From contig NZ_JADOUF010000001.1 in the NCBI RefSeq assembly GCF_015751905.1, forward strand, positions 3,906,001-3,970,000: a stretch of DNA of 64,000 bases, written 5' to 3'. The position numbers and the translations under genes are program-made. Under the pieces are notes generated by a model, which was given only the letters and a program-made list of their open reading frames with translations, was not told the DNA's origin and did no database searches. How positions within the stretch are numbered: position 1 is the stretch's first letter; every line of letters starts with the position of its first letter. Below are positions 916 to 13,373 of this stretch, one piece after another. The stretch is from Longispora fulva (lineage in GTDB: Bacteria > Actinomycetota > Actinomycetes > Mycobacteriales > Micromonosporaceae).

Positions 916-1440
916 TCAGGCGGCCAGGTCCGCCGGCCGGGTGTAGCCGCCGGCCACGAAAACCAACGGCTCGCCCCCCTCGGCCGCGTCGAACGCCAGC
1001 ACCTCGCCGGTCACCACGTCGTGGTCCCCCACCCGGCGCACCTCGCGCACGACGCAGTCGAAATACCCCACCGCCCCGTCCAGCACCGGGCTGCCCGTCG
1101 CCGGGGCCGGCGTCCACGGCACGCCCTCGAACGCAGCGGCCCCGACCGGCCGACGCGGGTCAGCGAACCACGCCGACAACCGGTGCTGGTGGGATCCGAG
1201 CACCGTGACCGCGAACGCGCCCCGTTCCGTCAGCTGCGGCCCCAGCCGGCAACCCCGGCGCAGGCAGACCAGCACCAGCCTCGGCGCCAGGGACACCGTG
1301 GTGAAGGAGTTCACCGTCATGGCCTGCGGGCCGGCGTCGGTGGCCACCGCGACCACTGTCACCCCGGTGGGCAGCCGGCCGGCCACTCGGCGGAACTCCC
1401 GGTCGGTACGGCCGGGCACCATGGTCAGCCCCGCGCTCAT
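916..1440 (-). CDS. Flavin reductase family protein (RiPP operon tail)
   Basis: A 174-aa protein of the FMN-binding split-barrel flavin reductase family. It shows the typical early block (PTGVTVVAVATD, then MTVNSFTTVSLAPRLVLVCL), a central FAVTVLGSHQ segment and a GDHDVVTGEV block near the C terminus. Such proteins use NAD(P)H to reduce FMN or FAD, usually for a partner monooxygenase. The start ATG at 1440 overlaps the TPR gene stop (ATGA), so translation is coupled and it belongs to the precursor/protease/TPR operon. It could supply reduced flavin to, or itself carry out, a redox step on the peptide; that part is inference. Confidence 0.85.
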   Translation of the reverse strand: MSAGLTMVPGRTDREFRRVAGRLPTGVTVVAVATDAGPQAMTVNSFTTVSLAPRLVLVCLRRGCRLGPQLTERGAFAVTVLGSHQHRLSAWFADPRRPVGAAAFEGVPWTPAPATGSPVLDGAVGYFDCVVREVRRVGDHDVVTGEVLAFDAAEGGEPLVFVAGGYTRPADLAA

Positions 1441-4617: not shown

Positions 4618-4734
4618 CTAGACGCAGCAGCAGTTGTTGTAGCCGTACTGGTTGCACATCGCGGTCAGCCGCACCGAACCCGGCTTGCGCACGACGATCT
4701 TCTTCATGGCCTTGACAGTCTTGATCTCGCTCAT
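4618..4734 (-). CDS. Short Cys-rich RiPP precursor peptide (lanthipeptide-like)
   Basis: A 38-aa peptide. It has a basic N-terminal part (MSEIKTVKAMKKIVVRKPGS), then VRLTA, then a C-terminal core MCNQYGYNNCCCV. Start ATG 4734 has an excellent Shine-Dalgarno (AAGGAGG at 4744-4750). It heads the protease/TPR/reductase operon and is divergent from lanM, so it is the best substrate candidate. It is unusual: there is no GG/GA cleavage motif, the leader is basic rather than acidic, four Cys sit at 27 and 35-37, and the only Ser/Thr are at 2, 6, 20 and 24. At most two (methyl)lanthionines could form between residues 20-24 and the cysteines, leaving two or more Cys for disulfides or other chemistry. 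Confidence 0.8.
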   Translation of the reverse strand: MSEIKTVKAMKKIVVRKPGSVRLTAMCNQYGYNNCCCV

Positions 4735-4821
4735 CGAGATCCACCTCCTTCGTGGTTGACTTCAGCCTGCCGGCTGGGACGTCGCGGCGAATCAGGGTGC
4801 GTGCCGAACGTTTTCCGGGCC

Positions 4822-4842: not shown

Positions 4843-4886
4843 ACCGCGCGCCCCCATATCGGTCGAGTGTGGACGGTGGCAGGATC

Positions 4887-4902
4887 ACTGGTCGTGACCA
4901 GT
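4887..4902. promoter_or_regulatory. DasR-like (dre-type) palindrome at the start of lanM
   Basis: ACTGGTC-GT-GACCAGT is a perfect 7+2+7 palindrome. It differs from the dre consensus of the GntR/HutC regulator DasR (ACTGGTCTAGACCAGT-like) only at the two central bases. It overlaps the proposed GTG start of lanM at 4894. If functional it would tie lanthipeptide production to N-acetylglucosamine status. This is inference from motif likeness. Confidence 0.35.
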
Positions 4903-7779
4903 CAGTGGTGGGCCGCGGGCCTTCTCCCGCGGGAACGTCCGGCCGGCGACGCCCCGGTCTGGGCCCGGTTCGTGGCGGAGGTGCTCGCCGGGCTACCGGT
5001 GGCCGTGGCCCCGCCGGCCGACGACCTGACCGGGGTCGAGGGGCTGGGCCGCGTGCTGCGCCCCCTGGTCCGGCACGCGGTCGACGGGCTCGGCGCGGCC
5101 CCGGAGGGGGTGGCCCGGGGACTGGCCGTCCGGCTGGAGCGCGGCCTGCTGCGGATCGCGGCCCGGTGCCTGGTCACCGAGCTGCACGCGTGCGGCGCGC
5201 GCGGCGACCTGACCGGGGACACCCCGCGGCGGCGGTTCGGGTCCTTCGTCGCGCTGCTGTCCGGCCGGGCGGGACTCGCCGGCCTGTTCGAGGGGTACCC
5301 GGTGCTGGGTCGCCTGCTGGCCCAGCACTGCGCGCAGGGCGTCGAGGTGACGGCGGAGCTGCTCGACCGGTACGCCGCCGACCGGCCCCTGATCGTCGAA
5401 CGCCTGCTCGGCGGGGTCGACCCCGGGCCGCTGGTCGAGGTGGACGCCGGCGCGGGGGACGGGCACCGGGGCGGCCGGTCGGTGGCGGTGCTGCGGTTCG
5501 CCGGCGGGGCCCGGGTGGTGTACAAACCGCGCCCGTTGGCCGTGCACGGGCTGTTCAACGAGGTGCTCGACCGGCTGGGCCTGGGTCTGCGGCCGGTGCG
5601 CCTGGTCGAGCGCGACGAGTACGGCTGGACCGAGTTCATCCCGGTGGAGCCGTGCGCCGCACCGGCCGAGGTGCGCGCCTTCTACCGCAGGCAGGGCGCC
5701 CTGCTCGCCCTGCTCTACGCGCTGGACTGCACGGACGTGCACTACGAGAACCTGATCGCGCACCGCGACCAGCCGGTGCTGATCGACCTGGAGACGCTGT
5801 TCCACCCGGAGCTGCCGATGCCGACGGAGACCGGCGTCGACCCGGCCGCCGACGCGCTGGGCTCCTCGGTGTACCGGGTCGCCCTGCTGCCCCGGGTCGT
5901 GGTCGGCGACCAGACGGCGCTGGACGTCTCCGGCCTGGGCGGCGACGCGGGCGTGCTGTCCCCGTTCGAGGGCCTGGACTGGGAGGACCCGGGCACCGAC
6001 CGGATGCGGGTCACCCGTCGGCGGCGGCCGTTCGCGGGCTCGGACAACCGTCCCCGGCTGGGCGACGACCTGCCGGCCCCGGAGCTGTACACAGAGGACC
6101 TCGTCGCCGGGTTCCGCACCGGCTACGACGCGATCCTCGCGGGACGAGCCGCCCTGGCCGCCCTGCTCCCGGGTTTCGCCGACGCGGACGTCCGGGTGGT
6201 GCCGAGGGCGACCCGCTGGTACGGCCGGCTCCTGGACGAGACCACGCACCCCGACGTGCTGCGCGACGCGGCCGACCGGCACCGGGTCCTCGCCGAACAG
6301 CTCGCCGCCGCCTCCCACGACCCGGTCCGCGCCGCCCTGATCGACCAGGAGCTCGCCGAGCTGTGGCGGGGCGACGTGCCCCTGTTCACCGGCCGCCCCG
6401 GCTCCACCGACCTGCTGGGCGCGGATGGCCCGGTGTCGCCGGCCGGCGGGGCCTCCCCCATGCCGATGACCGGACTCGACCGGGTGGAGCGCAAGATCGC
6501 CGCGTTGAGCCGCACCGACCGCTACGACCAGGAATGGATCATCCGTGCCGCGATGGCGACCCGGCACCGCACCCCGCTGCACGTCCCCGCCCCGCCCGGC
6601 CCCCCGGCCGGCTGGGTGGCCCCGGACCACGACCGACTGCTGGCCGCCGCGCGCGGCATCGCCGACCGGCTGGTGGCCACGGCCTACGAGAGCGACGGCC
6701 GCGTCAACTGGCTGGGTCTGGAGCCCTTGGAGGACGGGTACTGGACGGTCGCGGCGCTCGGCGCGGCCCTGGGCTCCGGCTACTGCGGCCCGGCCCTGTT
6801 CCTCGACCAGTTGGCGACGATCACCGGCACCGACCGGTACGCCGACCTGGCCCGCCGGGCCCTCGTCCCGCTGCCGGCCCTGCTCGACGGGCTGGCCCGG
6901 ATCCCGGAGCTGGCCGCGATCGTGGGGCCGGGCGCGTTCACCGGGTTCGGGGGGATCGCGTACACCCTGAGTTGTCTCGGCCCGTCGCTCGACGACCCCG
7001 GACTGGTCGAGCAGGCCGTGACCCTCACCGGCCGCGCGGCGCGGGAGTGCACGGACCCCGGGGTGGCCTCCGGGCTGGCCGGCGGGTTGGCCGCGATGCT
7101 CGCGGTCCACGCGGCCACGGGTCTGTCCGCGGCGCTGGACACGGCCGTGGACTGCGCCGACCGCCTGTTGGCATCCCCCGGAACGGGCTTCGTCGACGGC
7201 TCGATCTGGGACGGCTTCGCTGGCGGCTCGGCCGGGGGCGGCTTCGCCGACGGGGCGGCCGGAGTGGGCTGGGCGCTGGGCCGACTGGCCGACGAACTGG
7301 ACGCCGCCGAGCATCGGGCCGACGCCGGGGAGCCGGGCCGCGGCGGGGAGCGCTACCGGACCGCCGGCCTGGCCACCCTCCGTTCGATCGAACCATCCAC
7401 TATGGTCGATCTGTCCTGGTGTCGCGGCCTGTCGGGTTGGGGACTGGCCGCCGCCGACCCGGCCGCCGCGGACCTGCGCTCGACAGCCGTCTCCGCCGTC
7501 CTGCAGGCGCCCGCCAGCGCCGACCTGGGCCTGTGCCACGGCGAACTGGCCGCCCTGGAACTGCTGGCCACGAGCCCGCAGGCTGCCCAGGCCCGACTCC
7601 GCCGGCTCGGGACGCTGCTCGCGGTGGTGGAACAGTCCGGTCCGACATGTGGGACGCCGACCGGCGTGCAGAGCCCGGGCCTGCTGCACGGCCTGTCCGG
7701 CATCGGTCACGGAATCCTGCTCGCCGGCTTCGGAGAGCGACTATCTTCGGCACTGCTTCTGCAACCGCCGAAGCGGTGA
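4894..7779 (+). CDS. lanM: Class II lanthipeptide synthetase LanM
   Basis: About 961 aa, normal for LanM. The N-terminal dehydratase domain has the kinase-like signatures: VVYKPRP (Lys ~211), DCTDVHYENL (Asp 281, His 283, Glu 285, Asn 286) and LIDLET (Asp 298). It would phosphorylate and eliminate Ser/Thr. The C-terminal LanC-like cyclase keeps the zinc ligands in SWCRG (Cys 843) and LCHGE (Cys 881, His 882), and ends with LLHGLSGIGHG. Start GTG 4894 gives VTSQWWAAGL, like many LanM N-termini, with AGGA nine bases upstream; GTG 4867 in the same frame is the alternative, without a visible RBS. It is divergent from the Cys-rich precursor and followed after 24 bp by a second candidate peptide. 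Confidence 0.93.
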   Translation: MTSQWWAAGLLPRERPAGDAPVWARFVAEVLAGLPVAVAPPADDLTGVEGLGRVLRPLVRHAVDGLGAAPEGVARGLAVRLERGLLRIAARCLVTELHACGARGDLTGDTPRRRFGSFVALLSGRAGLAGLFEGYPVLGRLLAQHCAQGVEVTAELLDRYAADRPLIVERLLGGVDPGPLVEVDAGAGDGHRGGRSVAVLRFAGGARVVYKPRPLAVHGLFNEVLDRLGLGLRPVRLVERDEYGWTEFIPVEPCAAPAEVRAFYRRQGALLALLYALDCTDVHYENLIAHRDQPVLIDLETLFHPELPMPTETGVDPAADALGSSVYRVALLPRVVVGDQTALDVSGLGGDAGVLSPFEGLDWEDPGTDRMRVTRRRRPFAGSDNRPRLGDDLPAPELYTEDLVAGFRTGYDAILAGRAALAALLPGFADADVRVVPRATRWYGRLLDETTHPDVLRDAADRHRVLAEQLAAASHDPVRAALIDQELAELWRGDVPLFTGRPGSTDLLGADGPVSPAGGASPMPMTGLDRVERKIAALSRTDRYDQEWIIRAAMATRHRTPLHVPAPPGPPAGWVAPDHDRLLAAARGIADRLVATAYESDGRVNWLGLEPLEDGYWTVAALGAALGSGYCGPALFLDQLATITGTDRYADLARRALVPLPALLDGLARIPELAAIVGPGAFTGFGGIAYTLSCLGPSLDDPGLVEQAVTLTGRAARECTDPGVASGLAGGLAAMLAVHAATGLSAALDTAVDCADRLLASPGTGFVDGSIWDGFAGGSAGGGFADGAAGVGWALGRLADELDAAEHRADAGEPGRGGERYRTAGLATLRSIEPSTMVDLSWCRGLSGWGLAAADPAAADLRSTAVSAVLQAPASADLGLCHGELAALELLATSPQAAQARLRRLGTLLAVVEQSGPTCGTPTGVQSPGLLHGLSGIGHGILLAGFGERLSSALLLQPPKR

Positions 7780-7803
7780 CCCACCATCCACAGGAGACCC
7801 GAC

Positions 7804-7986
7804 ATGTCCACCCACCCCGCCGGCGAGATGCGATTCCGTGACGCCCCCACCGCCGGGGCCCGGCTCCGCCTGCTGGCCGGCAAGGCCGTCTCGTCGCTCA
7901 ACGTCGACGGCACGTTCGAGACCTCGATGTCGTACCGGACGTGCATCGGGGCGCCCGACACCCTCGACGAGGACCTCTGGTACTGA
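7804..7986 (+). CDS. Small peptide downstream of LanM, candidate second precursor
   Basis: A 60-aa peptide with a good RBS (AGGAGA) 24 bp after lanM. The N-terminal half is Arg/Ala-rich (MRFRDAPTAGARLRLLAGK); the second half is rich in Ser/Thr (positions 30, 31, 37, 40, 41, 43, 46, 53) with a single Cys at 47 and an acidic/aromatic tail (DTLDEDLWY). This could give one thioether ring plus dehydro-residues, so it may be a second LanM substrate. It shares no clear leader with the precursor at 4618-4734. It could instead be a small accessory protein. I do not recognise a family. Confidence 0.6.
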   Translation: MSTHPAGEMRFRDAPTAGARLRLLAGKAVSSLNVDGTFETSMSYRTCIGAPDTLDEDLWY

Positions 7987-8010
7987 CACGACCCACCTGA
8001 CCGGGCGGGA

Positions 8011-8016
8011 TACCGT
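8011..8016 (+). promoter_or_regulatory. -10 box of LAL regulator gene
   Basis: TACCGT lies six bases before the ATG at 8023 and no Shine-Dalgarno is visible, which fits a leaderless transcript. No convincing -35 is seen at 17 bp. Confidence 0.4.
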
Positions 8017-8022
8017 GCCACC

Positions 8023-10926
8023 ATGGTGAGCACCTCCTCCGTCGTCGTGGGCCGCGAGACCGAACTGTCCCTGTTGGACGAACGGCTCCGGGCCGCCGGC
8101 CGGCGGGACTGCGACCCGGTGGTCCTCCTCGGCGAGGCCGGGATCGGCAAGTCCCGGCTGGTCGCCGAGTGCGCCGCCCTGGCGTTCGTCGCGGGGATGC
8201 CCGTGCTGCGCGGCCGCGGCGGCAGCAGGGGCGCGGCGATGCCGTTCCGCCCGCTGACCGAGGCGATGGCCTCCCTGTTCCGGATCACGGGCCCGCCCCG
8301 GGCGCCCGAGCTCGCGCCGTACCGGCCGGCGCTGGCCCGGCTGATCCCCGAGTGGCGCGACAGCGCGCGCCCCGCCGGCCCGGTGAACCTCGTCGACCTG
8401 TCCGAGGCCGTGCTCCGGCTGCTGGGGGTCGTCGGCGGGGACACCGGCTGCCTGATGGTCCTGGAGGACGTGCACGACGCGGACGCCGAGTCCCTCGCGG
8501 TGATCGAGTACCTGATGGACAACATCGCCGGGATGCCCGTTCTGCTGCTGCTGAGCCAGCGGCCGCTGCCGGGTCCGCCGCTCGCCCTGGTCCGCGAGGC
8601 CGCCCGCCGCAGGACGGCCACCCTGCTCGAGTTGGCTCCCCTCACCGGGGACCAGACCCGGGCGCTGGCGGCGCACTGCCTGGAGGCCGGGCCCGGGCAG
8701 GTGCCCGAGCAGGTGCTCGACCGGCTGGTCCGGCACGCCGACGGCAACCCGTTCGTCATCGAGGAACTTCTCGGCGCGATGACCGACTCGGGCGCGCTGC
8801 GCCGGGTGCGCACCGCCGACGGCCGGCCCGGCTGGCGTCTCGACGGCGACCTCGGCCCGCAGATCCCCGACACCGTGGTGCGCGGCATCGCCGAGCGGGT
8901 GGACCGGCTCGGACCCGCCGGGCGGGAGCTGCTCGAGGCCGCCGCAGTCCTCGGCCACCGGTTCTCGCTGTCGACGTTGCAGGCCACCACCGGCCTGGAG
9001 GACCGCCAGCTCCTCAGTCACATCCGCGCGGCCGCCGACCTGCGGCTGATCGCCCCGGACACGGCCCCCGGCGACTGGTACGCCTTCCGGCACGCCCTCA
9101 CCGCCGAGGCGCTGCTCAGCACCCTCATGCCGGTCGAGCGGAGCGCACTGTCCCGCCGGGCCGCCGAGGCCGTGGAGCGGGCCGGCGTCGACGAGGACGC
9201 CCCGTTCGCGGCGGAACTGTGGCTGGCGGCCGGCGAGTCCGGCGCGGCGGCCCGACTGCTGGGCGCGGCCGGCCGGCGCACCCTGGCCATCGGGGCCAGC
9301 ACCTCCGCGGTGGCCCTCCTGCGCCGGGCCCACGCCCTGAGCCCCGCCGACGGGTACGCCACGCCCCTGGTCGAGGCCCTCGCGGACGCCGGCCTGTCCG
9401 ACGAGGCGTTCGCCCTGGCGGCGACCCTGCCCCCGGCCGGGCGGAGCACCCCGGAACGCGAGCACCGCGCGGCCCTGCACACCACGCTGGCCTGGGCGGC
9501 GGTGACCTCCGGCCGGTACGACGAGGCGGAGCGGCAGGCCGGGGCCGCGCGGACCATCCTCGGTCCCGACCCCCGGCCGGTCAGCCTGGCCGCGATCGAC
9601 GTGGTGGCGGCGCGGCTGCTGATGGAGGTGCCGGGGCCGGGGCCCGACCAGCACGTCCGGGCCGAGGCCCTGGCGCGGGGCGCCGCCGACGTGGCGGAGG
9701 CGGCGGCCCTGCCCGAGGTGGCCTGCCGCGCCTGGCAACTGCTCGCCGGCCTGGCCCGCCGGGACGGTTACGAGGAGGGCGACCGCTGCCTGGAGCGGAT
9801 GTTGGACATCGCCGAACGGCACGCCCTGCCGGCCTGGCGGATGCAGGCGCTCCTGCGGCTCGGGGTGAACGAGTTCCTCCGCACCGGCGAGTCCGCCCGC
9901 CTCGAACAGGCCCGGCTCGCGGCCGGGGAGCTCGGCGCGATCGTGCTCGGCACCTCCCTCGACGTGAACCTGGGCCTGCAGCACGTGCTCCGCGGCGACT
10001 ATCCGGCGGCGACCGCCGCGGCCGACCGGTGCGAGCGGGCCACGCTGCGGATGGGCAATCCCGGCGAGCACCGGTCGGTGCTGCTCACCCGCGCCGCCCT
10101 GGCCGCGCACCAGGGGCAGCGTCGGCTGATGGAGTACGAGCTGGCCCGGTTCGAGCAGCACGGCGGGGACCGGTCGCCGCACCGGGCGCTGCTGTTCGGC
10201 CTCGTCCGGGCGGTGTGCGCGCTGCTGGAGGAGAACCACGCGCTGGCCGCCGACGAGCTCGACCGCGCCCTGGAGTGGGAGCTGCGCCATCCGACGGTCT
10301 ACTACCTGGCCGGCCGGTACGGGCTGCGGGTGCTGGTCGAGGTGCTCGCCGGCCGGGCCGGTCAGGCCGAGCACGACGAGATCGCGGCGGCGCCGGCGGC
10401 CCGGCTGCGGTGGAACCGGCAGTTCCTGTTGTTCGCAGGGGCGGTGCTGGCCGGCCGGGCCGGGCGCGCCGCGGAGGCGACCGCCCTGTTCGAGGCGGCG
10501 TGCGAGGCCGCAGCCCCGTTCCCGATGGCCGGACACCTGGGCCGCCGGCTGGTGGCGGAGGCCGCGGTCACGGACGGCTGGGAGGCACCGGTGTCCGCCC
10601 TGCGCGCCGCGGAGGAGTACTTCCACGCGGCCGGGGTGCCGGCGGTGACCAACGCGTGCCGGGGCCTGCTGCGCCGACTGGGCGCCGGGGCCGCCCAACG
10701 CCGGACCGGCCGGGACCGCATTCCGCCGACCCTGCTCCTGCAGGGTGTCACCGTGCGCGAGTTCGAGGTGCTGGAGCTGCTCGGCGAGCACCCGGGGAAC
10801 CAGAGTCTGGCCCAGGTGCTGTTCATCTCCCCCCGTACCGTCGAGAAGCACGTCGGGAACCTGCTGACCAAGACCGGCCTCCCCGACCGCGCCGCCCTCA
10901 CGGCCTACGCCAGGTCCCTCGACTAG
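8023..10926 (+). CDS. LuxR-family LAL transcriptional regulator (AAA + HTH)
   Basis: A 967-aa large ATP-binding LuxR (LAL) regulator. Walker A GEAGIGKS is at residues 37-44, Walker B is CLMVLEDVHDAD near 145-156, a long middle region is MalT-like helical repeat, and the C-terminal ~65 residues are a LuxR HTH (TVREFEVLELLGEHPGN, then SPRTVEKHVGNLL). Such proteins are usually pathway activators in actinomycete secondary-metabolite clusters, so it likely controls the adjacent RiPP genes. The stop overlaps the stop of the convergent acylase gene: both use the palindrome CTAG at 10923-10926, leaving no room for a separate terminator. Confidence 0.9.
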   Translation: MVSTSSVVVGRETELSLLDERLRAAGRRDCDPVVLLGEAGIGKSRLVAECAALAFVAGMPVLRGRGGSRGAAMPFRPLTEAMASLFRITGPPRAPELAPYRPALARLIPEWRDSARPAGPVNLVDLSEAVLRLLGVVGGDTGCLMVLEDVHDADAESLAVIEYLMDNIAGMPVLLLLSQRPLPGPPLALVREAARRRTATLLELAPLTGDQTRALAAHCLEAGPGQVPEQVLDRLVRHADGNPFVIEELLGAMTDSGALRRVRTADGRPGWRLDGDLGPQIPDTVVRGIAERVDRLGPAGRELLEAAAVLGHRFSLSTLQATTGLEDRQLLSHIRAAADLRLIAPDTAPGDWYAFRHALTAEALLSTLMPVERSALSRRAAEAVERAGVDEDAPFAAELWLAAGESGAAARLLGAAGRRTLAIGASTSAVALLRRAHALSPADGYATPLVEALADAGLSDEAFALAATLPPAGRSTPEREHRAALHTTLAWAAVTSGRYDEAERQAGAARTILGPDPRPVSLAAIDVVAARLLMEVPGPGPDQHVRAEALARGAADVAEAAALPEVACRAWQLLAGLARRDGYEEGDRCLERMLDIAERHALPAWRMQALLRLGVNEFLRTGESARLEQARLAAGELGAIVLGTSLDVNLGLQHVLRGDYPAATAAADRCERATLRMGNPGEHRSVLLTRAALAAHQGQRRLMEYELARFEQHGGDRSPHRALLFGLVRAVCALLEENHALAADELDRALEWELRHPTVYYLAGRYGLRVLVEVLAGRAGQAEHDEIAAAPAARLRWNRQFLLFAGAVLAGRAGRAAEATALFEAACEAAAPFPMAGHLGRRLVAEAAVTDGWEAPVSALRAAEEYFHAAGVPAVTNACRGLLRRLGAGAAQRRTGRDRIPPTLLLQGVTVREFEVLELLGEHPGNQSLAQVLFISPRTVEKHVGNLLTKTGLPDRAALTAYARSLD

Positions 10927-13373
10927 GGGCGCAGCACCTGGGTGGACGCGGCCTCCCTGCGGATGGTGGCCTCGTTCCAGCGCATCGGCAGGTCCTGGCC
11001 CTTCTGCCACAGCGGGAACTGGTCGTCGTAGTGCTCGTCGAACGCGTGCCCAGAGTTCCCGGTCAGCTGCACCCACCGCGACGCGTCCAGGTCGGACATG
11101 TCCACGATCATGCGCATCGACGGCACGGCGGTGACCTCGTACCCGTCGGGGGCGTCCCAGCCCGTCGCGTTCGGGATCCCGCCGCCACCGGCCACCGGGA
11201 ACGGCCCCCGGTTGAACAGCCACTCGATCGGCCCGATCCCGGACTTGCCGAACGTCTGGTTGGTCAGGGTCAGGGTGTGCAGGTCACCCCACCGCCACGC
11301 CTTCGGATCCTTGCCGAACCGCTCGGTCAGCTCGCGCTCGGCGTCGGCCATCGCGGCGGCGAGGATGTCCTGCTGCGACTCCACGGCCGGGGTCCGCTTG
11401 TCGTCCCACCACGGCGACGCCGGGTCCGCGAGGAGACTGCGCATGACCTCGAAGTACCGTTCCCCGCCGTTGGGGGCGTGTTCGGTGCCGAGTTCGTCGA
11501 AGGTGTGCGCCATCAGCGCCCGCCACGTCGCGTTGTAGAACGCCGCCGGTGCGGAGTCGGCCGGCTGCTGGAAGTCCCAGCCCTTCAGGAGATCCCGAGC
11601 CGGCGAGGACCCGGGCACCGCGAGCAGCTTGGGAACGACGGCTTCGGCCCCGCCGTTGCGGTTGTCGAACTGGATCCGGCCGATCGCCGCGGCGTCCAGC
11701 TTGTCCGAGGCGAGCAGCAGGTCGGTGATCCGCTGCGACCGGTACCCGAAGGCCCAGTCGTGGGTGAGCATCCGGGGATAGCCGGCCCCGATCACCTCCT
11801 GGTTGGCGGTCACCACATAACCCCGCGCCGGGTTGTACTCGTTCGGCAGCTCCGCGAACGGGATGAACGACTTCCAGTCGTAGTCGGACTCCCAGCCCGG
11901 GGCCGGGTAGCGCCCGTCGCCCTTGCCCCGTACCGGCACCCGCCCCGGGGCCTGGTAGCCGATGTTGCCGTCCACGTCGGCGTACACGATGTTCTGGGAG
12001 GGCACCTCGAACTTCGACGCCGCCGTGCGGAACGATTCCCAGTCCGACGCCCGGTCGATCGCGAACAACGCGTCGATGGTGTGCCCGGGGTCCAGCGCCG
12101 TCCACCGCAACGCCATGCCGTACACGCCGGCGGCCGTGGCCATCTCCTTCGACGTGTCCGACATCAACGGCCCGTGCTTGGTGCTGCGCACCGTGATGGT
12201 CACCGGATCGCCACCGGCGACCTTGAGCACCTCGGTGCGCTTGTCCAGGTCCAGCCACTGGCCGTCGACCTGGTACCGGTCGCCGTCGAGCTTCTCGAGG
12301 TAGAGGTCCGTGACATCCGGGTCGAGGTTCGTGAAGCCCCAGGCGATCCGCCCGTTGTGGCCGATCACGACCCCGGGGACGCCGGAGAAGGTGAATCCGG
12401 CGACGTCGAAACCGCAGGAGGGACAGTGCAGTCCCATCTGGTACCAGATGCCCGGCATCGACGGGGACAGGTGCGGGTCGTTGGCCAGCATCGGCTTGCC
12501 CGACTTCGTCCGGCTCCCGGCCACCACCCACGAGTTGGAGCCGATCCCGTCGGCGTCGAGCCCGGTGGCCCTGGTCGCGGCGGCCACCTTCTCGATCCCC
12601 TCGGACAGGTCCCGGATCAGCGACCGGGGAGCCGGGGGCGGCGGCTCCGCCGTGTACCGCCCGTCGGCCACCGTGCCGGCGGTCGGCACGATCGGGGCGT
12701 GCCGCGCCTCCGGGTACGCCGGATACAGCTCCTCGACCCGCGCCCGGTCCATCCCGCCGGCCGTCAACTGCGCCCGGGTCAGCTCGTCGTCCATGTTGCC
12801 CCGCAGGTCCCACGCCATCGCCTTGAGCCAGGCGAGGCTGTCCACCGGGCTCCACTTCTCGATGACGTAGTCGCCGTTCTGCAACCCCAGGACGGAGTAC
12901 TCCAGGCTCGCGGTGCCGGCGTCGTGGTCGGCGAGCCAGGTGTTGACCCCGGCGGCGTACGCGTCGAGGAAGCCCCTGGTCTCCGGCGTCGCCGCCGCGT
13001 ACTCCGCCTCGGCGACCCGCCGCCACCCCATCGTCCGCAGGTACTTGTCCGTGTCGACCTGCCCGGCCCCGAACAGCTCCGCCAGCCGGCCGGCCGTGAC
13101 GTGCCGGCGGAAGTCCATCTCCCAGAACCGCTCCGTGGCGTGCAGGTAGCCCTGGGCGCGGAACAGGTCGCCGGAGGTGGTCGCGTAGACCTGGGGAATG
13201 CCGTGCGCATCCCACCGGACCGTGACCGGCGCGCTCAGCCCTGCCAGTCTCAGGTCGCCGGACCGTTCCGCCAGGGGCCGGCGCACGGTCCAGAACACGT
13301 AGCCGGCACCGGCCAGCACGAGCACCAGCACCGCGACCAGCGACCACAGCAGGACTCTGCGAAGCTTCCTCAT
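10923..13373 (-). CDS. Penicillin acylase family protein (Ntn hydrolase, secreted/anchored)
   Basis: An 816-aa protein. Residues ~6-27 form a signal/anchor segment (VLLWSLVAVLVLVLAGAGYV) after a basic start. The alpha-chain region (HGIPQVYATTSGDLFRAQGYLHATERFWEMD, given as HGIPQVYA and LHATERFWEMD blocks) is typical of the family. The maturation nucleophile is Ser 279 in GSNSWVV, followed by LANDPHL and a beta chain ending in a block with SGHAFDEHYDDQ. These enzymes cut themselves at that Ser and hydrolyse amide bonds of beta-lactams, acyl-homoserine lactones or lipopeptide acyl chains. The substrate is unknown. The upstream gap to 13556 holds the divergent exonuclease promoter. Confidence 0.88.
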   Translation of the reverse strand: MRKLRRVLLWSLVAVLVLVLAGAGYVFWTVRRPLAERSGDLRLAGLSAPVTVRWDAHGIPQVYATTSGDLFRAQGYLHATERFWEMDFRRHVTAGRLAELFGAGQVDTDKYLRTMGWRRVAEAEYAAATPETRGFLDAYAAGVNTWLADHDAGTASLEYSVLGLQNGDYVIEKWSPVDSLAWLKAMAWDLRGNMDDELTRAQLTAGGMDRARVEELYPAYPEARHAPIVPTAGTVADGRYTAEPPPPAPRSLIRDLSEGIEKVAAATRATGLDADGIGSNSWVVAGSRTKSGKPMLANDPHLSPSMPGIWYQMGLHCPSCGFDVAGFTFSGVPGVVIGHNGRIAWGFTNLDPDVTDLYLEKLDGDRYQVDGQWLDLDKRTEVLKVAGGDPVTITVRSTKHGPLMSDTSKEMATAAGVYGMALRWTALDPGHTIDALFAIDRASDWESFRTAASKFEVPSQNIVYADVDGNIGYQAPGRVPVRGKGDGRYPAPGWESDYDWKSFIPFAELPNEYNPARGYVVTANQEVIGAGYPRMLTHDWAFGYRSQRITDLLLASDKLDAAAIGRIQFDNRNGGAEAVVPKLLAVPGSSPARDLLKGWDFQQPADSAPAAFYNATWRALMAHTFDELGTEHAPNGGERYFEVMRSLLADPASPWWDDKRTPAVESQQDILAAAMADAERELTERFGKDPKAWRWGDLHTLTLTNQTFGKSGIGPIEWLFNRGPFPVAGGGGIPNATGWDAPDGYEVTAVPSMRMIVDMSDLDASRWVQLTGNSGHAFDEHYDDQFPLWQKGQDLPMRWNEATIRREAASTQVLRP

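Follow-up and report, generated by a model that had tools for sequence, protein, structure and literature searches.

A conserved short peptide beside a LanM gene in Longispora fulva is probably the precursor of a LanM-independent, RRE-guided maturation system

The window, by which we mean the whole 64,000-nucleotide stretch of the L. fulva genome analysed here, carries a short ORF that starts with ATG, translates as MSEIKTVKAMKKIVVRKPGSVRLTAMCNQYGYNNCCCV and heads an operon: peptide, RRE-M50 membrane protease, TPR protein and flavin reductase (Table 1). Both the protease/TPR and the TPR/flavin reductase junctions are ATGA-type overlaps. On the other side lie a divergently transcribed LanM gene, a second short ORF (P0006) and a LuxR-type regulator; a gene for a Penicillin amidase family protein (10923-13373, minus strand; 828 bits) adjoins the latter.

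Table 1. Features at the peptide locus, in window coordinates
Feature	Position	Strand	Remarks
Flavin reductase-like protein	916..1440	-	PF01613, 123.8 bits; start overlaps TPR stop
TPR protein, 655 aa	1437..3404	-	N-terminus apparently STAND/AAA-like, without the Walker A lysine; start overlaps protease stop (ATGA)
RRE-M50 fusion, 385 aa	3401..4558	-	Predicted RRE ~2-79 and site-2-protease-like part ~133-334; HExxH 153-157, Asp257
Precursor peptide gene, 38 aa	4618..4734	-	Leader motif KKIVVRKPGSVRLT = residues 11-24; core AMCNQYGYNNCCCV
Shine-Dalgarno of peptide gene, AAGGAGGT	4743..4750	-	Before peptide ATG
LanM	4867..7779	+	Divergent neighbour over 132-bp spacer; judged outside the peptide's system
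P0006, 60 aa	7804..7986	+	HPAGEM leader remnant, one Cys, several Ser/Thr; starts 24 nt past LanM stop
LuxR-type regulator with AAA ATPase	8023..10926	+	Downstream of LanM and P0006

A sequence-only reading of this DNA had described the ORF as a non-canonical, LanM-associated precursor of 38 residues. Its coordinates are reproduced, as are the Cys residues at 27, 35, 36 and 37 and the scarcity of Ser/Thr (four, at 2, 6, 20 and 24). The leader is, as that reading held, basic rather than acidic: the peptide has seven Lys/Arg against one Asp/Glu, and its leader contains neither GG/GA nor a WKDP/HPAG-type signature. The C-terminal residue is Val. The core, AMCNQYGYNNCCCV, is devoid of Ser/Thr, and therefore no lanthionine is possible inside it; Ser20 and Thr24 both fall within the conserved leader motif. 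With zero Ser/Thr in the core we abandon the compact LanM product with one or two rings and leftover thiols that had been offered as a first option. The LanA model TIGR03898 did not match the peptide at E<=10, and the Pfam and NCBIfam releases searched gave no match for P0001 or for six other family and sister peptides.

The LanM itself is intact in both domains, just as the earlier reading stated: it scores 626.8 bits against TIGR03897 (cut-off 304), matches both DUF4135 and LANC_like of Pfam, and retains WCxG, CHG and HGxxG, which we take to be the zinc-site motifs of LanM. Its most likely substrate is P0006. Relatives of P0006 lie directly behind LanM in a paralogous locus of the L. fulva genome (E 1.2e-7) and in the only further genome of the genus covered by the search, G001 (E 4.3e-5). 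G001 encodes a third relative as well (L158, contig C23, 8449-8622; E 1.1e-6), which has no LanM match within 16 kb, and therefore P0006 alone is no proof of LanM pairing; the window P0006 lacks the N-terminal leader part seen in its relatives, which makes its own fate less certain. Among the 48 LanM places and the P0006 matches, 14 regions were read, and LanM is present in 13. In ten of these 13, the window included, the HP[AS]G motif of a short same-strand ORF lies 36-144 nt past the LanM end, against a background of 188 in 2,600 random same-strand stretches of LanM loci. A WK[DT]P stretch precedes the motif in six of the ten (L155, L156, L157, L159, L160 and L161), and the remaining three LanM loci (L163, L165 and L166) show TCC close to the end of a short ORF. 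The peptide of the L. fulva LanM paralogue reaches 14.8 bits against TIGR03898, below the cut-off of 23.5. Neither an M50 gene nor the ORF at 4618-4734 was matched in 12 of the 13 LanM loci, that is, in all but the window. The sequence-only reading had itself said that a different conserved precursor in homologous clusters, together with a lack of conservation of this ORF, would speak against it, and this is the pattern that the LanM loci display. The L. fulva genome also holds two more LanM genes, both followed by HP[AS]G-type short ORFs (C1:3889824-3892670, which ends ~13 kb before the window, and C1:3563824-3566598), as well as a LanM fragment with two in-frame TGA codons (C1:4051345-4052346). 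At L168, two short HPAG-type peptides with several Cys are encoded upstream of LanM and a further one downstream; together they may form a multi-peptide lantibiotic set.

The peptide, the protease and the TPR gene are found together in 88 of 89 distinct loci from Actinomycetota and Chloroflexota. A peptide search gave a match at E<=1 in 19 of 61 genomes, L. fulva included (the sole other peptide match in the L. fulva genome has E 4.2), and of 19 loci taken from other genomes the 11 with protease and TPR genes were kept. The loci L025, L032, L034, L035, L036, L038, L039 and L040, without these genes, were set aside as chance matches; the L025 match (E 0.0025) contains one internal stop. In 84,980 species genomes, scanned after a pattern prefilter, we found 169 stretches encoding a protease relative, of which the best 80 were read. 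Together with the 11 loci and the window this makes 92 rows, reduced to 89 distinct loci by removal of L047, L074 and L105, which duplicate L023, L031 and L037. The TPR gene adjoins the protease gene in all 92 rows. The peptide was found by regular expression in 85 of the 89 loci and by eye in three more (L050, L051 and L068, with MKT/VKT variants); at L076 no peptide was seen by either route. Two loci are from Ktedonobacter (Chloroflexota; L070 and L078), and most others are from actinomycetes. A protease profile search of 298 genomes of the order detected relatives, counting the sister group described below, in 35; a search of a plasmid collection returned no match.

A LanM match accompanies the peptide in three of the 89 loci (the window, L043 and L051; 5.6-21 kb examined per locus), the other 86 having none. 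At L051 LanM starts 5.6 kb past the TPR gene. At L043 LanM is adjoined by an ABC transporter and by a 66-aa DUF6229 peptide (5703-5903, minus strand; PF19740, 64.6 bits), which would be the LanA of that LanM; this peptide has four Cys near its end. We regard it as highly improbable that the window peptide is a (second) LanM substrate in which Ser20 and Thr24 lose one or two waters, Cys residues form rings and free thiols remain: while the window LanM is intact and divergent across the 132-bp spacer, the L043 LanM lies ~4 kb from a CCC-type peptide and P0006 has the LanM-free relative at L158, the core offers no Ser/Thr, the two candidate residues sit inside the conserved leader motif, 86 loci lack a LanM match, P0006 follows LanM just as the LanM relatives are followed by short ORFs of their own, and the L043 LanM has its own DUF6229 peptide. 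For the same core composition, for the basic leader and for the lack of conservation of its gene beside LanM, the peptide was rejected as a LanA. What stands of the earlier description is the non-canonical precursor with a basic leader, and what finds no support is its association with LanM, a gene present in so few of the peptide-protease loci and provided with a candidate of its own. The second option of the sequence-only reading, a substrate of different machinery in the operon, agrees with the recurrence of the peptide alongside protease and TPR gene.

Across 97 distinct peptides the leader is nearly invariant, with the consensus KKIx[VI]RKxGxVRLT (R6 in 97 of 97, K1 and L13 in 96 each, T14 in 95). 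The leader regular expression matched 107 times on the right strand within 2.5 kb upstream of the protease and zero times elsewhere (1,676 kb, six frames). Of the 107 peptides, 106 have an in-frame start preceded by a permissively defined Shine-Dalgarno-like site, in 91 of them directly before the motif. A chance ORF or a pseudogene in the LanM promoter region, which the shortness of the ORF and the lack of a family-model match might suggest, is barely conceivable against the conserved leader, the Shine-Dalgarno site, the gene overlaps and the zero motif matches elsewhere: the ORF is a genuine, conserved, LanM-independent precursor-like peptide.

Downstream of the leader, the length and sequence of the core are variable. 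Both Cys and Tyr, neither of which the regular expression demanded, are present in all 97 distinct cores; the first Tyr stands at motif position 21, seven residues past the Thr, in 79 of them, and the nearest Cys is at most six residues from the first Tyr in 95. Four of the 97 cores, that of the window included, lack Ser/Thr. Loci carry from 1 to 9 peptide copies. Tandem arrays of 9, 7 and 7 peptide genes are seen at L030, L033 and L037, with a shared leader and differing tails. Small residues usually follow the LT of the leader; this run is lost in the CCC cores, and therefore one cleavage rule may not be common to all. The ten CCC-type loci (defined by CCC or CSC in the peptide; L024, with CGCC, failed the label and sits elsewhere on the tree) fall to one side of a single branch in a protease tree built from 65 loci, the omitted 24 of the 89 being mostly close relatives of others. 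The SH-aLRT support of this branch, 92, is below the program's mark of 95, and 0 of 500 shuffles scored as low as the observed grouping. Core type and protease therefore tend to be co-inherited. The peptide family is widespread and, it seems, undescribed, with a leader code of its own: searching the literature accessible without subscription (motif text, titles and beginnings of abstracts) with the family's motif strings and gene set, we found no description of it.

The AlphaFold model of the RRE-M50 protein (pLDDT 92.2) suggests what might read this leader. Its RRE part aligns with TbiB1 (Z 10.1, rmsd 2.4, 78 residues aligned), TfuB1 (Z 9.7) and TigE (Z 9.3), and its site-2-protease-like part with RseP (Z 8.6, rmsd 4.1, 161 aligned) and SpoIVFB (Z 8.4); by the aligner's own caveat a Z below ~13 can reflect a common arrangement in helical folds, and the site-2-protease match (Z ~8) is modest. 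Foldseek returned no PDB match to the model at E<=0.001, the RRE and site-2-protease matches having E values of 0.1 and above. H153, E154, H157 and D257 are kept in all 61 aligned relatives, and D257 would be the distal ligand. No Pfam or NCBIfam model matches the protease encoded in the window; among the 61 relatives Peptidase_M50 matches 21 (E<=1; best E 4.4e-5) and PqqD, weakly, five (E<=1; best E 0.017). The window protease has the HExxH, the distal Asp and, in the predicted model, the membrane fold of M50/site-2 proteases, and we read it as a probable RRE joined to a site-2-protease-like part, with a modest fold match for the latter. The 'PqqD-M50' protein named earlier does exist, although family models miss the window protein.

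The model of the TPR protein (pLDDT 96.3) forms a generic TPR solenoid from ~residue 218, and its N-terminus, judged from sequence, seems to resemble a STAND/AAA domain. The place of the P-loop reads GPYTAAGA in the window and mostly GPYTAAGT in relatives, with no Lys; none of 53 aligned sequences carries GxxxxGK[ST] within its first 120 residues. The model matches LGN (Z 21.8), Rap (Z 16.5) and, over 197 aligned residues, PlcR (Z 16.8). Around the cassettes, clustering of ~6,580 of 7,655 neighbour ORFs, which makes the cluster counts lower bounds, produced a cluster seeded by a SARP-type regulator in at least 45 loci (BTAD domain in 10 of 10 such regulators scanned) and an ABC-transporter-like cluster, far from the cassette, in at least 7. 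Ten proteins sampled from clusters present in 5-14 loci comprise four SARPs, two histidine kinases, one response regulator, one ABC transporter, one permease and one unmatched protein. A pheromone version of our main explanation, compatible with it, would have the freed Cys-Tyr peptide sensed by the TPR protein and feeding the SARP-type regulator. We consider this a tentative possibility: the TPR fold is comparable with PlcR and Rap, among many TPRs; the SARP-type cluster is frequent, no known maturase recurs among the scanned neighbours, and up to 9 tandem copies have differing tails. However, the TPR matches are generic and LGN scores higher, no DNA-binding domain was seen in the TPR protein, and a receptor alone leaves the Cys and Tyr of every core unexplained. 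An RRNPP pheromone receptor combines a peptide-binding TPR domain with an output domain, and of these features the TPR protein shows the TPR fold.

Flavin reductase profile matches are present in 47 of the 89 loci, mostly directly behind the TPR gene, and absent from 42, where some contigs are short; in L048, L053, L063, L069, L080 and L111 the gene is upstream or on the opposite strand. Families were scanned for 89 of 233 candidate neighbour ORFs (18 near-duplicates omitted), with 25 of 100 families listed. Flavin reductase is the commonest enzyme among the scanned neighbours (11 of 89 ORFs), no known maturase is recurrent among them, and the listed families include neither a radical SAM gene nor a metal-transport family. 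At L052 an FMN_red gene (12339-12884) lies downstream of the CCC-type cassette in the place of the flavin reductase, and the single AsnB-like gene seen in any locus (6531-8381) lies upstream of it. Cys-rich cores such as AMACYCYGCCCCGGRAAI, along with the prominence of flavin reductase, could point to a metal-binding or redox peptide (a metallophore or cofactor), an idea clearest for the CCC type; with a single Cys in 67 of 97 cores and no metal-transport family listed, we think it quite unlikely.

A second RRE-M50 group gives weaker profile matches (180-250 bits). The members read are L199, in the L. fulva genome itself (C1:1929367-1930536), and L200-L212. In seven of the 14 sister loci (L202-L208) a short Cys peptide whose leader is related (such as MKKLxVRKLExVKTS...C) is encoded 208-353 nt upstream, L207 having a second peptide at 560. 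No TPR or flavin reductase profile match of at least 40 bits occurs in any of the 14; a ThiF-like gene, so labelled by reading its sequence, is upstream in eight (L199, L200, L201, L207 and L209-L212). The leader code, the RRE-protease and Cys may be the common core of both families.

We propose that the ORF probably encodes the precursor for an RRE-guided maturation system that works independently of LanM. As in RRE-dependent RiPPs, an RRE domain (in the predicted model) is encoded with a precursor, and across the 97 distinct peptides the leader is conserved and the core variable. The folds and motifs suggest that the leader docks on the RRE domain, probably in the form of beta strands around its central Gly, and that the membrane-embedded HExxH protease would cut just past the leader, near the small residues after LT. 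The released peptide would be, at a very rough estimate, 10-15 residues long, its Cys and Tyr either free or later modified. More tentatively, the TPR protein might act in the cytosol as the peptide's adaptor or receptor, and in loci that have the flavin reductase this enzyme might contribute to redox chemistry on the Cys/Tyr core. The neighbouring LanM would act on P0006. An ABC-transporter-like cluster seen in few loci (at least 7) and the lack of a recurrent known maturase among the neighbours scanned are unusual for an exported RiPP and count against this explanation. Cys and Tyr are kept in every core found with no known maturase alongside, so that an unrecognised enzyme or a signalling role may be involved. 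Rather unlikely, in our view, is the more far-reaching version: a new RiPP class with Cys-Tyr modification (e.g. a thioether or macrocycle) made by no known maturase, relying on a minimal set of RRE-protease, a TPR protein of pseudo-ATPase type and a flavin-dependent partner for redox chemistry, with the CCC clade as its thiol-rich branch. The analysis corrects a tempting lanthipeptide assignment; what it adds is a family of peptides that have a leader code to themselves, along with a protease bearing what appears to be the matching recognition domain.

How does this system relate to known ones? Class II lanthipeptides share with the window the LanM, here a divergent neighbour, yet the core has no Ser/Thr and LanM is not conserved with the peptide. 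The lasso peptide B1 proteins TbiB1 and TfuB1 have the leader-holding RRE fold that the protease RRE resembles; unlike in lasso B1, the window RRE is joined to a site-2-protease-like part, and the single AsnB-like gene seen is that at L052. The epipeptide maturation metalloprotease YydH/LiaK is, as here, a membrane HExxH protease in a RiPP operon, and its family is weakly matched by two of the 61 protease relatives (best E 0.0095). Epipeptide operons include a radical SAM gene, whereas none is among the neighbour families listed for window-type loci. The NCBIfam model daptide_HExxH is weakly matched by three of the 61 relatives (best E 5.8e-4). The daptide peptidase MpaP/DapP is an RRE-dependent intramembrane peptidase with short precursor ORFs nearby, several per cluster (PMC10036551); RRE, M50 peptidase and nearby short precursor ORFs are thus common to both systems. 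Daptide precursors have, in the same text, an invariant C-terminal Thr and an ELExMEAP leader (PMC10036551), in contrast to the Val and KKIVVRKPGSVRLT of the window peptide, which we did not assign to the daptides on account of this leader and C-terminus. The daptide MpaB/C/D/M set (oxidative decarboxylase, aminotransferase, methyltransferase, DUF-RRE) is not recurrent among the 89 of 233 neighbour ORFs scanned, with 25 of 100 families listed. By analogy, MpaP would be the closest precedent for the leader cleavage proposed here (PMC10036551).
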